Assembly (NCBI RefSeq): GCF_017569205.1
Contig: NZ_CP071870.1
Span: 992,001-1,056,000, forward strand
DNA length: 64,000 nt
Direction: 5' to 3'
Source: Propioniciclava sp. MC1595
Lineage (GTDB): Bacteria; Actinomycetota; Actinomycetes; Propionibacteriales; Propionibacteriaceae
This document shows positions 25,323-40,624 of the stretch, piece by piece. The translations under genes and the position numbers were made by a program. How positions within the stretch are numbered: position 1 is the first letter of the stretch; each line of letters starts with the position of its first letter. Under the pieces are notes generated by a model. That model did no database searches and was not told the DNA's origin. It was given only the letters and a program-made list of their open reading frames with translations.

Positions 25323-26210
25323 TCAGCGGACCGTCGGCGTCTGCTGCTCGAACCGGAGCCGCCACGTGTCGTCGTGCTTGACCCAGATCGAACTCCGCAG
25401 ACTGACCGCGCTGCGCGAGCGCGCCCGCCAGCGCAGCTGCACCACCCACGGGGCCAGCTCGTCGATGCCCTCGACCTCGACGGTGATCTGGTCCTCGTGG
25501 GGCTTGAGCGTGGCTAGCGTGCGGCCCTTCCCGGACGCCCTGCCGTTGACGTCGTGCTCCATGAACCGCGGGTGGAGGAGCGCCTCGGCGGCGGACCGGT
25601 CGGAGCGCACGGCGTCCGAGAGCCAGCTGCGCTGCAGCGCGACGACGGGGTGCTCGTCCTCGTCGGGGGCGGGGTCCGGGGCGGCGTCGAAGAGATCCGG
25701 CTCGCGGACCGGGCCGGGGGAGACATCGGGGGTCGGCGTCCGGACGACGTCGGGGGAGAAGCCGGGGCCCTCGTCGACGGGCAGGCCCTTCTGGAAGGCC
25801 ACCGCGGCGGCCCGCGCTCGGGCGTCAGCGGCCTCGTTGAGCTCGTGGCCGGCGTGCCCCTTCACCCACTCGAAGGTGATGCGGCGGCCGACGAGTTCGG
25901 TGTCGAGCTCCTTGAGCAGGTCGACGTTGAGCACCGGCTTGCCGTCGGCCTTCTTCCAGCCACGGCGCTTCCAGTTGGGCATCCACTTGGTGAGGGAGTT
26001 GATCACGTACTGGGAGTCGCAGAAGACCAGCAGGTCATCCTCGGCGCCCTTCGTCTGGCGCAGGAGGTCGAGCACCGCCATGAGCTCGCCCATGTTGTTG
26101 GTGCCGTGCTTCCAGCCGCCGGCGGCCCAGCGGTCGCCGTCGATGAACCACGCCCACCCGGCGGGACCGGGGTTGGACAGCGACGACCCGTCGGCGGCAG
26201 CAATGATCAC
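25323..26210 (-). CDS. rnhA: RNase HI fused to an NTF2-like (DUF4440-type) domain
   Basis: A 295-residue protein. Residues 1-145 are RNase HI with the four carboxylates in AAADGSSL, NNMGELMAV, FCDSQYV and the AADARAR region, plus WVKGHAGHELNEAADA with its catalytic His. It cuts RNA in RNA-DNA hybrids. After a Pro/Asp-rich linker, residues 190-295 form an NTF2-like domain (LQRSWLSDAVRSDRSAAEAL, then WRARSRSAVSLRSSIWVKHD). The GTG start at 26210 has CAGAAT six bases upstream. One of the flanking palindromes of the neighbouring DUF559 gene begins 28 bases upstream of this start. Confidence 0.9.
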   Translation of the reverse strand: MIIAAADGSSLSNPGPAGWAWFIDGDRWAAGGWKHGTNNMGELMAVLDLLRQTKGAEDDLLVFCDSQYVINSLTKWMPNWKRRGWKKADGKPVLNVDLLKELDTELVGRRITFEWVKGHAGHELNEAADARARAAAVAFQKGLPVDEGPGFSPDVVRTPTPDVSPGPVREPDLFDAAPDPAPDEDEHPVVALQRSWLSDAVRSDRSAAEALLHPRFMEHDVNGRASGKGRTLATLKPHEDQITVEVEGIDELAPWVVQLRWRARSRSAVSLRSSIWVKHDDTWRLRFEQQTPTVR

Positions 26211-26237
26211 CCGGCCATTCTGCCCCACCCCCCAGGG

Positions 26238-26297
26238 GTGCACTTCGAGGCGGCGTTTCTATCGCTGGGGCGATAGTTCTGTGAGCGCGAAGTGCAC
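26238..26297. repeat. 60-bp palindromic repeat, copy 1 (left end of DUF559 unit 1)
   Basis: It is identical, in inverted orientation, to 27424-27483 over all 60 bases; the match stops exactly at the ends. Each copy is itself a two-stem hairpin: outer stem GTGCACTTCG/CGAAGTGCAC, inner stem CTATCGC/GCGATAG around TGGG, with unpaired segments between. Confidence 0.97.
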
Positions 26298-26366
26298 ACC
26301 CCCCCCGGGCGCGGGGGCACCCCGTGCCGCCTGTGCCGCCTGTGCTGTCCGAGCCTTCCCGGGATC

Positions 26367-27314
26367 TCAGGCGATCAGGACGTCATCCGATTGCCATCCG
26401 AGCCGCGGGAGAACGACTGAGGCGAGCTTCCCGATGAAGGTCCCGGGTGTGTCGCGAAGCGTTGTGGGCGCAACCGGGACGACCACGATCCCGAAGGTCT
26501 GGTAGTCGAGGTCCTTCTCCATGGTGGAGGCGAACTTGTCCCCTCCCGTGTCGGTGAATCCGTCGTGGTACTTCCGCGAGTGCACCTGCACCACGACCCC
26601 GGCGTCGGGGAAGTAGCCGTCGGGGGTACCGATCCTCTTGCCGCAGGCTGTCACCAGCCTCGGGTTCTGCACCATGCGGGGCAGGTCCGGGTGCTCGCGG
26701 ACGAGGACCGCCAACTCAGCCTCGGCGACGGACCACGACCCCCGACGGAAGTCCACCACCGCCTCGACCATGCCACCCGTGGCGTTGGGGCGTCCGTACT
26801 CGATCTCGCTGGCGAGCCGATCCGCACTGGTGCGCCGGTTCTGCAGGATGGCCATGGCCACGCCTCTGAGGTGCCGGTCGGAGAGCTGACGCAGGCGGTT
26901 GGCGTCCGCCAGCGCCCGTTCGACGGGGGCTATGCGGAGGTCGTCGCGCAGGACCGGCGCGGGTAGACGCTTGGTCCGGACTGTCTCGAACCCGCCCGCT
27001 CGGACGCGGGCGCGTGCGGTGTTCGGGACCAGGAATGACGTGATGGGGAACTCGTGGTCGTACGCGAATCCGTGCACCTGTAGTGCATGGAGCCCGGTCA
27101 GAACCGAGCGCGGGCCGGCCCACAGGGACGCCGCCACGAGGAGGTCGCCTCCCGTGAGGGGACCTGGGCGCGGGGAGTACACGGTGCGCAGGATGCGACG
27201 GCCGCTGCGCACGAGGTGCTGCAGCTGGGAGAGGGACGCCCCGGCCTCGAGCAGTTGCTGTGTGGTGGCCAGACCTCGCTGACCGAAGATGACAGGGAAC
27301 GTGAACTTCGACAT
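26367..27314 (-). CDS. AbiEi-like N-terminus plus DUF559 (Vsr-fold) endonuclease domain, copy 1
   Basis: A 315-residue protein. Residues 1-75 resemble the winged helix of AbiEi-type antitoxin proteins (FGQRGLATTQQLLEAGASLS, LVRSGRRILRTVY). The middle is variable. The last 120 residues match the DUF559/Vsr PD-(D/E)xK fold: SVAEAELAVLVREH, GTPDGYFPDAGVVVQVHSRK, then KDLDYQTFGIVVVPV. At the central strand the usual VEVD reads VQVH, so the metal site may be altered. The ATG at 27314 was chosen because the frame upstream runs through the palindrome. GACATT-CCGGGC-ATG suggests a leaderless mRNA. Confidence 0.75.
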   Translation of the reverse strand: MSKFTFPVIFGQRGLATTQQLLEAGASLSQLQHLVRSGRRILRTVYSPRPGPLTGGDLLVAASLWAGPRSVLTGLHALQVHGFAYDHEFPITSFLVPNTARARVRAGGFETVRTKRLPAPVLRDDLRIAPVERALADANRLRQLSDRHLRGVAMAILQNRRTSADRLASEIEYGRPNATGGMVEAVVDFRRGSWSVAEAELAVLVREHPDLPRMVQNPRLVTACGKRIGTPDGYFPDAGVVVQVHSRKYHDGFTDTGGDKFASTMEKDLDYQTFGIVVVPVAPTTLRDTPGTFIGKLASVVLPRLGWQSDDVLIA

Positions 27315-27423
27315 GCCCGGAATGTCGGCAGGAGGCGGCCATTTCGTGCAGCGAGTTCGTGGCTTGTGGACAACCTGCGTCGGGTCCGGGAATCCGTCCA
27401 CAGGTTGATCGCCGCCACCGGGA

Positions 27424-27483
27424 GTGCACTTCGCGCTCACAGAACTATCGCCCCAGCGATAGAAACGCCGCCTCGAAGTGCAC
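27424..27483. repeat. 60-bp palindromic repeat, copy 2 (right end of DUF559 unit 1)
   Basis: Exact reverse complement of 26238-26297. It lies 110 bases upstream of the DUF559 start. Between repeat and gene there is a dyad, CAACCTG at about 27370 and CAGGTTG at about 27396, each next to a GTGGAC/GTCCAC motif. Confidence 0.97.
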
Positions 27484-27538
27484 TCCGGAGGAGGACGAGG
27501 ACGAGGAGCCCGGCGACGAGCGGGCCCCACGGGACGCC

Positions 27539-28225
27539 TTACGGCTGGGGCCGAACCAGGCCGGTGTCGTAGGCGAACACCACCATGCCGACGCGGTCGC
27601 GCAGGGCGAGCTTGGCCAGGATGTGGCCGATGTGGGTCTTGACGGTCGCCTCGGCGAGGAACAGCGTCTGGGCGATCTCCGAGTTCGTCAGGCCGGTGCC
27701 GACGAGCGTCAGCACCTCGCGCTCGCGCTCGGTGAGCACGCCGAGGCGCTCCTCGGGCGACTTCCCGGTCGAGGCGTCGCCGGGCATCATCGGCACGAAG
27801 CGCTCCAGCAGGCGGCGGGTCGCGGAAGGCGCCACGACGGCCTCACCCGAGTGCACGGCACGGATGCCGGCCAGCAGCTCGGCCGGACCGGCGTCCTTGA
27901 GCAGGAACCCTGAGGCGCCCGCCTGCAGCGCCGAGTAGACGTACTCGTCGAGGTCGAACGTCGTGAGCACGAGCACCTTCGCGGCGGCGCCCGAGGCGAC
28001 GATGCGGCGGGTGGCCTCGACGCCGTCCATGATCGGCATGCGGATGTCCATCAGCACGACGTCGCAGCCGGCAGGCGCGGAGACCGCGCGCACGGCGTCC
28101 TGCCCGTTGCCGACCTCGGCGACGACCGTCATGTCGGCCTGCGCGTCGAGCACCATGCGGAACCCGAGGCGGACCAGTTCCTGGTCGTCGGCCAGCACGA
28201 GGCGGATCGGTTGCGGTTCGGTCAT
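27539..28225 (-). CDS. NarL/LuxR-type response regulator
   Basis: A 228-residue two-component regulator. The receiver domain has the acidic pair in LADDQELVR, the phospho-acceptor Asp in VLMDIRMP at about residue 58, and the Lys in FLLKDAG. The C-terminal LuxR helix-turn-helix is LTEREREVLTLVGTGLTNSE then ATVKTHIGHILAKL. Its ATG overlaps the kinase stop (ATGA), so the pair is co-translated. The target genes are unknown. Confidence 0.95.
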   Translation of the reverse strand: MTEPQPIRLVLADDQELVRLGFRMVLDAQADMTVVAEVGNGQDAVRAVSAPAGCDVVLMDIRMPIMDGVEATRRIVASGAAAKVLVLTTFDLDEYVYSALQAGASGFLLKDAGPAELLAGIRAVHSGEAVVAPSATRRLLERFVPMMPGDASTGKSPEERLGVLTEREREVLTLVGTGLTNSEIAQTLFLAEATVKTHIGHILAKLALRDRVGMVVFAYDTGLVRPQP

Positions 28226-29478
28226 GACATCGCTCCTTGCGGGGTCGGGATTCGGGCGGTGACGACGAAGCCGCCGTCAGGGTGGTCGACGGCGGAGAGG
28301 GTTCCGCCGAAGGCCGACACGCGCTCGCGCATGCCGACCAGGCCGTGGCCGAGGCCGTCGGTGGGTCCGGCGCCGACGCCGGTGTCGCGCACCTGGACGA
28401 TCAGCTCGGCCTGGGCGTGGTGGAGGTGCACGAGCACGGAGGCGTCCTCGCCGGCGTGCTTGACCGCGTTGGTCAGCGCCTCCTGCACGATGCGGAACAC
28501 GGCCAGCTCGAGGCCGGGGGAGAGGTGGCGGCGCAGGGCCGGGTCGCCGGTCACCTGCATGCGCACGTCGCGGCCGGCGTCGGCCAGCCCCTGCACGAGG
28601 CCGAAGATGTCGCCGAGGCCGGACGCCGGGGCGAGCTCGGTGCCCTGGTCCGAGCGGAGCACACCCACGAGACGCCGGGTCTCGGTCAGGGCGTCGGAAG
28701 CGGTCGAGCGGATTGTGGCGAGTGCCTTCTCGGCGGTCGCGAGGCGCATGGCCGGGTCGCCGTCCATCGACGCCGCATAGGCGCCGCCGTCGGCCTGCAC
28801 GACGATCACCGCAAGCGAGTGGGCCACGACGTCGTGCATCTCGCGGGCGAGGCGCTGGCGCTCCTGGGTGGCGGCCAGGAGGATCGCCTGCTGGTGCTGG
28901 AGGGTCTGGGCCGTCACGGCGTCCTGGGAGGCCGCGCGGGCCTCGTTGCGCGCCCGGACGAACGCACCGAGCGCCCAGCTCGCGGCGACCACCGAAGCGA
29001 GGCCGAGGAAGGTGACGACCGACACCGCGATCAGGGACGCGACCGGCTCGCCCCCCGTGCCCATGGTGTTGCGCTCCCAGGCGGAGCCGAACGTCCAGTC
29101 GGCGGCGGCGACGAGCGAGGTGAACCCGCCGAACGCGAGCCACCACAGGCGGTACCTCAGGCGTCCGTGCGCGGCTACCGTGAACATCATCAGGGGCACG
29201 GTGATGTTGCCGGCGTTGGGGGCGTTCACCACGGCGAGCTGGACCAGGTGGGCCGGGAGCAGCGCCAGCGTGGCGAGGTCGGGGTCGGCGCGGCGCCACA
29301 GGAGCGGCAGCACGTACAGCAGGCCCCACCCGAACATCGCCCAGGTCGAGACGGTCGACCCCGCCCCGTCGATGTACAGGGTGCCGGGCGCCAGCAGCAC
29401 CAGGAACCCCAGCAGGGCCGCCCACACGTAGTCGAGCGGCCGCGGCCGGGGCAGCCGGAAGCTCGGTCGGGCGGTCAC
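28222..29478 (-). CDS. Sensor histidine kinase, HisKA_3 type
   Basis: A 418-residue kinase. The N-terminal 170 residues hold about five or six membrane helices. The phospho-acceptor His is in RLAREMHDVVAHSLAVIVVQ. The ATPase has VFRIVQEALTNAVKHAG (N box), DTGVGAGP and GHGLVGMRERV. It is of the kind that pairs with NarL-type regulators, here the adjacent gene. The GTG at 29478 has TAGTCT six bases upstream, inside the end of the preceding ctaA gene, so it probably has its own promoter. Confidence 0.95.
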   Translation of the reverse strand: MTARPSFRLPRPRPLDYVWAALLGFLVLLAPGTLYIDGAGSTVSTWAMFGWGLLYVLPLLWRRADPDLATLALLPAHLVQLAVVNAPNAGNITVPLMMFTVAAHGRLRYRLWWLAFGGFTSLVAAADWTFGSAWERNTMGTGGEPVASLIAVSVVTFLGLASVVAASWALGAFVRARNEARAASQDAVTAQTLQHQQAILLAATQERQRLAREMHDVVAHSLAVIVVQADGGAYAASMDGDPAMRLATAEKALATIRSTASDALTETRRLVGVLRSDQGTELAPASGLGDIFGLVQGLADAGRDVRMQVTGDPALRRHLSPGLELAVFRIVQEALTNAVKHAGEDASVLVHLHHAQAELIVQVRDTGVGAGPTDGLGHGLVGMRERVSAFGGTLSAVDHPDGGFVVTARIPTPQGAMS

Positions 29479-39385: not shown

Positions 39386-39438
39386 GCTTTCGACCGACGC
39401 CATGCGAGTCAGGACGCCGCGGCTGTCGGTCGAAATCG
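39386..39438. repeat. 53-bp palindromic repeat, left copy of DUF559 unit 2
   Basis: Hairpin with an 11-bp perfect stem TTTCGACCGAC/GTCGGTCGAAA. In inverted orientation it matches 40572-40624: the outer 13 and 14 bases are identical, while the 26 central bases agree at only about 12 positions. Confidence 0.92.
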
Positions 39439-39550
39439 GCAGTCGCTGCGCGTCAGCGGACGGTGTGGATACCCCGCGTGCGCAGGCTCAAGCCTGTGGA
39501 CGCCGCCGCTTGGGTGACCGAACTCCCGCTCGTCCGCCCAACCTCCGGGC

Positions 39551-40567
39551 ATGGACCAACCGCCCACGTTCCCCGAGGCCGGCGAAAGCCGATCCCCTCG
39601 GGCCCTCCGCGACGAAGCGCGCCGGGTCGAGCGGGAGAGACGCGAGCTCCTGGCCGAGGAGCTCGCAGCCCCCTACGACGGAGTGGTCACCCTCGCGATC
39701 CTGCTGGCGGCCGGTCTCACCCGCGGCCAGATCGAGGCCCAGGTCGCGCGAGGCGCCTGGCATCGGCTCGGCCGACACACCGTCGCGGTGCGCGGTCAGG
39801 CACTCGCCGGCCGCGCGCGCTGGTGGCACGCGCTGTGGGAGTCCGGGAGGCACGCCGCCCTCGACGGTGCGACCGCGCTGCTGGCGGCAGGTCTCAAGGG
39901 GTGGAGTGGGCGAGACATCGACGTGACGGTGCCCAACAACGCCCGGGTGCGACCGATTCCCGGGGTCCGGCACCACCGCCTCCGGGAGCAGGCGCCGACG
40001 GTGGGGGCGCTGCGACGGACGCGCCCCGAAGTGGCTGCGATCCGGGCGGCCCAGTGGGCCGTGTCCGATGCGGAGGCGGCCACCGTCCTCGCCATGGCGG
40101 TGCAGCAACGACTCGTGTCCCCGGGGGCCTTGCTCGAACGCTGGCGGCGGGTGGGTTACTCGGGGCGACGCGAGTTCCTGGACGTCGTCATCGAGGACAT
40201 CTGCAACGGCGCCGAGTCGTTGGGGGAACTGGACTTCGCCCGCATGTGCCGCGCACGTGGTCTGCCCGAGCCCAGTCGCCAGGTGCTCAGGACGGGGCCC
40301 CGGGGGCGCGCCTACCTCGACGTGTTCTGGGACGACGAGGGTGTCCACGTGGAGATCCACGGCGCGCACCACTACGCCGGCCTGACGCCGGTCGAGGACG
40401 CGCTGCGGGCCAACGACCTCGCCATCAGCGGTGGCGACGAGATCCATCTCCAGGTGCCCGTCCTGGGTCTGCGGCTGTCCGGACGCCGGTCGGTCCTCCT
40501 GGATCAGGTCGAGCGGGCCCTCGTTGAAGGGCGCCGCCGGGCCGCCCGGCGCTCCAGCACCCAGTGA
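39551..40567 (+). CDS. AbiEi-like N-terminus plus DUF559 (Vsr-fold) endonuclease domain, copy 2
   Basis: A 338-residue protein. A basic N-terminus leads into an AbiEi-type winged helix (YDGVVTLAILLAAGLTRGQI, RGAWHRLGRHTVAV). The C-terminal 120 residues keep all expected PD-(D/E)xK residues: Glu in SLGELDF, Asp in AYLDVFWDD, Glu in VHVEIHGAHHY with two His, and Asp in RANDLAI. It should therefore be a competent nuclease fold, unlike copy 1 with VQVH. CAACCT-CCGGGC-ATG gives a leaderless-type start, sharing TCCGGGCATG with copy 1. There is no antitoxin or toxin partner next to it. Confidence 0.78.
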   Translation: MDQPPTFPEAGESRSPRALRDEARRVERERRELLAEELAAPYDGVVTLAILLAAGLTRGQIEAQVARGAWHRLGRHTVAVRGQALAGRARWWHALWESGRHAALDGATALLAAGLKGWSGRDIDVTVPNNARVRPIPGVRHHRLREQAPTVGALRRTRPEVAAIRAAQWAVSDAEAATVLAMAVQQRLVSPGALLERWRRVGYSGRREFLDVVIEDICNGAESLGELDFARMCRARGLPEPSRQVLRTGPRGRAYLDVFWDDEGVHVEIHGAHHYAGLTPVEDALRANDLAISGGDEIHLQVPVLGLRLSGRRSVLLDQVERALVEGRRRAARRSSTQ

Positions 40568-40571
40568 CCGA

Positions 40572-40624
40572 CGATTTCGACCGACGCCGGTTGTGTCGGG
40601 ACTCCGCCAGTGTCGGTCGAAAGC
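40572..40624. repeat. 53-bp palindromic repeat, right copy of DUF559 unit 2
   Basis: Inverted partner of 39386-39438, starting four bases after the DUF559 stop. Outer stem CGATTTCGACCGAC and GTCGGTCGAAAGC. Confidence 0.92.

Follow-up and report, generated by a model that had tools for sequence, protein, structure and literature searches.

Sequence comparison points, with somewhat better than even probability, to a two-part system resembling REP/RAYT in many actinobacteria, in which a nuclease built from AbiEi-like and Vsr-like domains would nick and spread palindromes specific to its own gene. The evidence is comparative, and consists of the flanking of the genes by repeats, the gene-specific sequence of those repeats, their dispersal, their co-occurrence with the gene, covariation in their stems, and empty sites. 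The tie between each gene and its cognate palindrome is well supported by these comparisons. That the protein binds, nicks and spreads its cognate hairpin is what we infer from its predicted fold, its conserved residues and the likeness to REP/RAYT. The system was recognized in a stretch of 64,000 nucleotides of Propioniciclava sp. MC1595, referred to here as the window.

The gene, its product and its flanks

The first-pass annotation of the window had described an exact 60-base inverted pair around a single gene, each repeat being a two-stem hairpin, and sequence comparison and folding bear out both descriptions. The two blocks (Table 1) are reverse complements at 60 of 60 bases, lie in inverted orientation and are each an imperfect palindrome; a longer, weaker match extends beyond the pair (72 nt, 94%). 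Each block folds into an outer stem of 10 bp, an internal loop, an inner stem of 7 bp and a loop of 4 nt, with a z score of -4.4 on one strand and -6.0 on the other (200 shuffles each). A third copy of the palindrome (G000, C1:523945-524004, identity 90%) lies between convergent genes and is shared with the equivalent site of genome G009. The window genome was assembled as one contig, and the same palindrome pair surrounds the same gene, with a protein 99% identical, in a different species of the genus whose genome (G012) was assembled separately, which removes the assembly artefact that the annotation had allowed for. A known RNA family was considered and rejected, as Rfam gave two matches over 25800-28000, both far under their gathering scores.

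Table 1. Features of the two units in the window
Feature	Position	Strand	Basis
AbiEi-like winged helix + predicted Vsr-like nuclease gene, 315 aa	26367..27314	-	profiles, predicted fold, alignment
60-bp palindrome, 3' of gene (gene/rnhA gap)	26238..26297		sequence comparison, folding
60-bp palindrome, 5' of gene (gene/response-regulator gap), exact inverted copy	27424..27483		sequence comparison, folding
TTGTCCACA, DnaA-box-like 9-mer, 59 bp 5' of start codon	27365..27373	-	motif count, alignment
Second gene of AbiEi-Vsr family	39551..40567	+	homologue search
Second-unit palindrome, upstream copy	39388..39435		sequence comparison
Second-unit palindrome, downstream copy, 8 bp past stop codon	40575..40622		sequence comparison

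The one gene inside the pair encodes a protein with an AbiEi-like N-terminus and a C-terminus predicted to be a Vsr-like nuclease. PADLOC AbiEi profiles match residues 11-172 (E 5e-13), and the AlphaFold2 model, built from a 16-row alignment with a mean pLDDT of 89.9, found in Foldseek a sole match at E <= 0.001, the AbiEi antitoxin 6y8q (E 1.2e-5). The next match was Rv2827c (1zel, E 2e-3), followed by weak matches to Vsr (1vsr; E 0.26, prob 0.87) and to an endonuclease-like structure (3hrl; E 0.35, prob 0.94). With the window protein, Pfam AbiEi_4 stayed under its cut-off (E 0.084), the NCBIfam cut-offs were unreached and Pfam DUF559 (PF04480) gave no match; the relative L093 scored 13.7 bits with DUF559 against a cut-off of 20.6. 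A sequence-profile search against solved structures returned nothing useful. The earlier name of the gene, AbiEi/DUF559, is therefore right in kind, since the PADLOC profiles and the AbiEi/Vsr-like predicted fold carry it, whereas the Pfam and NCBIfam scores fall short.

The Vsr-type active-site set E, D, H, H, D is present in the window protein: E198, D232 and D268 are found in 16 of 16 alignment rows, and H245 and H250 in 15. The residues of Vsr are E25, D51, H64, H69 and D97, as given in a section of PMC12907096. The spacing D232-H245-H250 (13 and 5; D-x12-H-x4-H) equals that of D51-H64-H69 in E. coli Vsr (K-12 sequence). Where a catalytic E is usual, 15 of the 16 rows have Q (Q243), so that the predicted nuclease activity is not assured. 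The neighbouring genes encode RNase H, a response regulator and a histidine kinase; an AbiEii-type toxin gene is absent from these neighbours, and an AbiE operon was rejected on that ground.

Palindromes of homologous genes

Homologues were drawn from 9 of 13 genomes of the genus, 76 of 147 of the family and 64 of 296 of the phylum, plus named records. The 93 gene-bearing loci came down to 72 once near-identical proteins were removed, representing the better-scoring part of the matches, and to 71 on leaving out one with a short flank. Among these listed matches, the palindrome pairs sought around other homologues were found: flank repeats (score at least 15, inverted or direct, 450 bp upstream against 450 bp downstream) surround 33 of 71 homologues, 13 of 18 close and 20 of 53 distant ones, versus 4 of 130 control genes. 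Two of those four controls are themselves homologues (L073:14965, which is unit L044, and window 39551, the second unit). Because the control genes came from 13 long loci, mostly of this genus, comparison across loci is the fairer control for distant homologues; in 852 upstream/downstream comparisons between different loci, limited to inverted repeats, the maximum was 14, against an inverted flank match of 61 for the window unit. The threshold was unmet in 38 of 71 homologues, including all eight of genus g38 (L112-L117, L120, L125). Hairpins scoring at least 11, about the 99% level of 141 shuffles, lie upstream of 38, downstream of 34 and on both sides of 20 of the 72 listed homologues.

By sequence comparison, the palindrome is common to close homologues and different between distant ones. 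Flank similarity (score at least 16, DnaA-like box masked) was seen in 20 of 26 pairs at 60-90% protein identity, 18 of 51 at 53-60%, 2 of 47 at 47-53% and 13 of 1370 below 47%, with two g18 genes double-counted in the lower bands; two pairs above 90% are the same loci fetched twice and are uninformative. In the top identity bands, part of the similarity may come from conserved gene order rather than from the palindromes. At the window's own site, the gene of genome G007 is 58% identical and its downstream palindrome is a different one, the upstream side being lost at a contig end; G006 has yet another palindrome beside rnhA, also at a contig end. At three contig ends of G012 (L027, L029 and L032), a perfect palindrome is followed by the reverse complement of its own flank, which marks a fold-back assembly error; these were left out of the argument on palindrome symmetry.

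Dispersed cognate copies were found for the window type, the L048 type and the palindrome of genus g18, and dispersal is clear for three repeat families. Of 146 genomes searched, three (G000, G009 and G012) contain the window-type palindrome, and these are the three of 13 genus genomes whose gene is at least 64% identical. BLAST with one G012 copy gave three places in G000, seven in G009 and 15 in G012, with flank matches only in G006 and G007. In G002 the L048-type palindrome is present 15 times, with four copies next to the gene; the 12 other genomes of the genus lack it.

Dispersal is most extensive in g18, where forward matches of the GACTTGTCAG palindrome number 125 in G505, 43 in G186, 25 in G501 and 17 in G198; G029 has four places, G163 two, G051 one and 13 others none, and the reversed control pattern gave 0 in every g18 genome. 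Homologues of at least 53% identity are encoded in G505 (two genes), G186, G501, G198, G029 and G163, and the remaining 14 of the 20 g18 genomes have none. All six genomes with a close homologue thus have at least two repeat places, as against 13 of 14 others with none and one, G051, with a single copy and no close homologue. Fisher tests gave 2.6e-5 for at least two places in g18 and 0.0035 for the window type in its genus, neither value being corrected for shared descent, from which the co-occurrence may partly arise. The repeat stands on both sides of all seven close g18 genes if the half-sites of G501 and G163 are included, the downstream copy of G186 overlapping the end of the reading frame. 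For ten g18 homologues of lower similarity, the fetched loci contain no repeat. Dispersal is weaker in genus g44, where G409 has a pair around its gene and one further copy, and single copies, with no homologue in the 3-kb locus, occur in 4 of 40 other genomes.

Two further observations concern g18. In G163, a genome with just two repeat places, the homologue is split over two frames (L167, G163:C1:3608852-3609686). At L163 and L166, the two gene-flanking copies have a common inner stem, unlike most dispersed copies, as if kept alike.

The inner stems of the dispersed copies covary. Among 43 equal-length copies from g18, Watson-Crick pairs make up 77% of cells at inner-stem positions 11-24; with partners shuffled (2000 shuffles), the mean is 43% and the maximum 55%. 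Three or four pair types are seen at 13 of 14 positions; the outer ten pairs are uninformative because they are fixed by the search pattern. At position 3, where the pattern allows C or G, 20 of the 43 copies have a C-C or G-G mismatch. Conserved stem mismatches are required for cutting of E. coli REPs, according to part of PMC8266576, and the parallel is only suggestive. As judged with a crude gene caller, 16 of 19 sampled copies in G186 have a gene 3' end no more than 30 bp away, six of them on both sides, whereas this held for 3 of 2972 random positions in the same loci. REPs are likewise found near gene ends (a section of PMC3733652).

A proposed two-part system and its alternatives

The first part of the proposed system would be a protein joining an AbiEi-type winged helix to a Vsr-like PD-(D/E)xK nuclease, encoded by a gene that usually keeps to one locus. 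The second part would be the imperfect palindromes, which lie on either side of the gene and, in several genomes, are dispersed as well, chiefly just past gene 3' ends. The protein may recognize its cognate hairpin in a cruciform or in the single-stranded DNA of a replication fork, and would nick it as Vsr does mismatched DNA, which for Vsr means T:G mismatches. Once nicked, the hairpin could be repaired or re-inserted, which would keep the flanking copies alike and occasionally place a new hairpin elsewhere. It counts against this explanation that the window genome has just three palindrome copies, as do the homologues under the flank-repeat threshold, the Q in place of the catalytic E, the single copies that G051 and g44 genomes have with no close homologue, and the one comparison of a filled with an empty site, which shows no clear target duplication.

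The annotation's analogy with REP elements and RAYT enzymes fits the palindrome-flanked genes and the dispersed cognate palindromes. So far as REPtrons (REP/BIME with RAYT, TnpA_REP) are described in parts of PMC3733652 and PMC8266576, they too have a gene between cognate palindromes, dispersed palindromes that co-occur with the gene and lie near gene 3' ends, genes that are usually few in number and without visible mobility, and stem mismatches. Unlike the HUH Y1 transposase of REPtrons, the enzyme here is, by profiles and predicted fold, an AbiEi + PD-(D/E)xK protein; moreover, no GTAG/CGTC tag is seen at the repeat ends, and one protein family goes with many different repeat sequences. REP-type repeats have been linked to HUH transposases or, as with CGTC REPs, have had no enzyme assigned to them (PMC3733652, in part). 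Because that defining HUH enzyme is absent, the AbiEi-Vsr genes and their palindromes stand outside REP/RAYT.

The two domains of the protein also have separate relatives. The predicted C-terminal fold and the D-x12-H-x4-H spacing resemble Vsr, and the winged-helix fusion, the palindromic flanks and the lack of an adjoining cytosine methyltransferase set the protein apart from it. The N-terminal half is AbiEi-like in profile and fold, although the antitoxin of the type IV toxin-antitoxin system differs in its AbiEii partner, missing beside this gene, and in having no added nuclease domain of the kind predicted here. VsrA of Caulobacter is likewise a Vsr-like DUF559 protein, and palindromes are not mentioned in the portion of PMC12907096 that describes it. 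In titles and abstract beginnings of the open-licence papers listed, no DUF559, AbiEi or Vsr-like gene is tied to palindromic repeats; earlier reports may exist, for instance in subscription papers or preprints.

We put at a little under even the chance that this is a convergent, independent actinobacterial counterpart of REP/RAYT, in which AbiEi-Vsr nucleases, possibly under DnaA control, nick their own hairpins, keep the pair identical and seed copies past gene ends, with several such nuclease-hairpin pairs of differing specificity possible in one genome, as the window would illustrate. If so, a second, unrelated class of enzyme would live with dispersed hairpins, and such a life style would have arisen more than once; a large group of actinobacterial genes that are still unassigned would gain a suggested role, and many natural enzyme-hairpin pairs with distinct specificities would be at hand for testing how repeats spread.

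The palindromes could instead be operators, insulators or transcription ends, which the winged helix binds or which stop transcription, the nuclease domain being unused there. AbiEi binds its own promoter, and this reading draws on the AbiEi matches, the position of sampled dispersed copies at gene 3' ends, the covarying stems and the replacement of the catalytic E by Q in the window's clade. We nevertheless consider it unlikely, as no intrinsic terminator (short GC-rich stem, then a T run) occurs in 26100-27700, co-occurrence with one gene would not be expected of plain terminators, and the Vsr-type residues are kept in 15 or 16 of 16 rows.

A mobile element of the classical type, in which palindrome, gene and palindrome move as a whole, with the palindromes as ends and solo palindromes as remnants, would account for the empty sites. 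Such sites were found where the annotation had suggested looking, in G004 and G010, whose response-regulator and rnhA genes adjoin with gaps of about 60 and 40 bp and the unit absent; a unit had been thought unlikely if other DUF559 genes had no such pair and no empty site existed, and both have now been found. In G009 the unit is present and the kinase and regulator genes are not next to it (L024, G009:C22, against window 27539-29478). The g18 genes occupy at least three loci, four at one, two at another and one elsewhere. Movement of whole units is still improbable, since most close genes lie where their relatives do, the repeats of G505, G186, G501 and G198 are far more numerous than the genes, and a transposase family match is absent. 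A relative of the AbiEi-Vsr protein, at 32% identity, appears in 1 of 72,556 plasmid records, and none in 50,697 phage records, figures which likewise tell against a mobile element and on which plasmid or phage cargo was rejected. One dispersed G012 copy is absent at the matching place in G000 and G007; in this single comparison, the filled and empty sites differ by ~150 bp, with GC-rich repeats and no clear target duplication. The earlier idea of a selfish unit is partly borne out: most genes keep one conserved locus in the clades examined, so it is the hairpins that disperse and the gene that rarely moves.

It is very improbable that the gene serves in defence or as a toxin-antitoxin component, with palindromes that mark self DNA or regulate it: the AbiEi profiles do belong to a defence-system library, but the gene adjoins those for RNase H and a response regulator, with no AbiEii-type toxin, and the dispersed copies at gene ends would be left unexplained. 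Chance or assembly error, to which the fold-back errors in G012 might lend colour, has next to no probability and was rejected, given the one-contig genome, the second assembly and the cross-locus control.

A second unit and an upstream element

The window contains a second unit (39388-40622), bounded by TTTCGACCGAC...GTCGGTCGAAA palindromes that are unrelated to those of the first; they were not found elsewhere in 217 fetched loci.

A DnaA-box-like 9-mer lies upstream of 28 of the 72 family genes. It may couple expression to replication, or may instead be part of the promoter. The form in the window, TTGTCCACA, is a high-affinity DnaA box in the M. tuberculosis and S. coelicolor lists in part of PMC4285127. 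Downstream of the homologues, TTNTCCACA does not occur within 450 bp. The 150 bp upstream contain it, on either strand, in 14 of the 19 close homologues and 14 of the 53 distant ones, the background rate being 0.009 per 150 bp; in 10 of those 14 close homologues it stands 58-61 bp before the chosen start.
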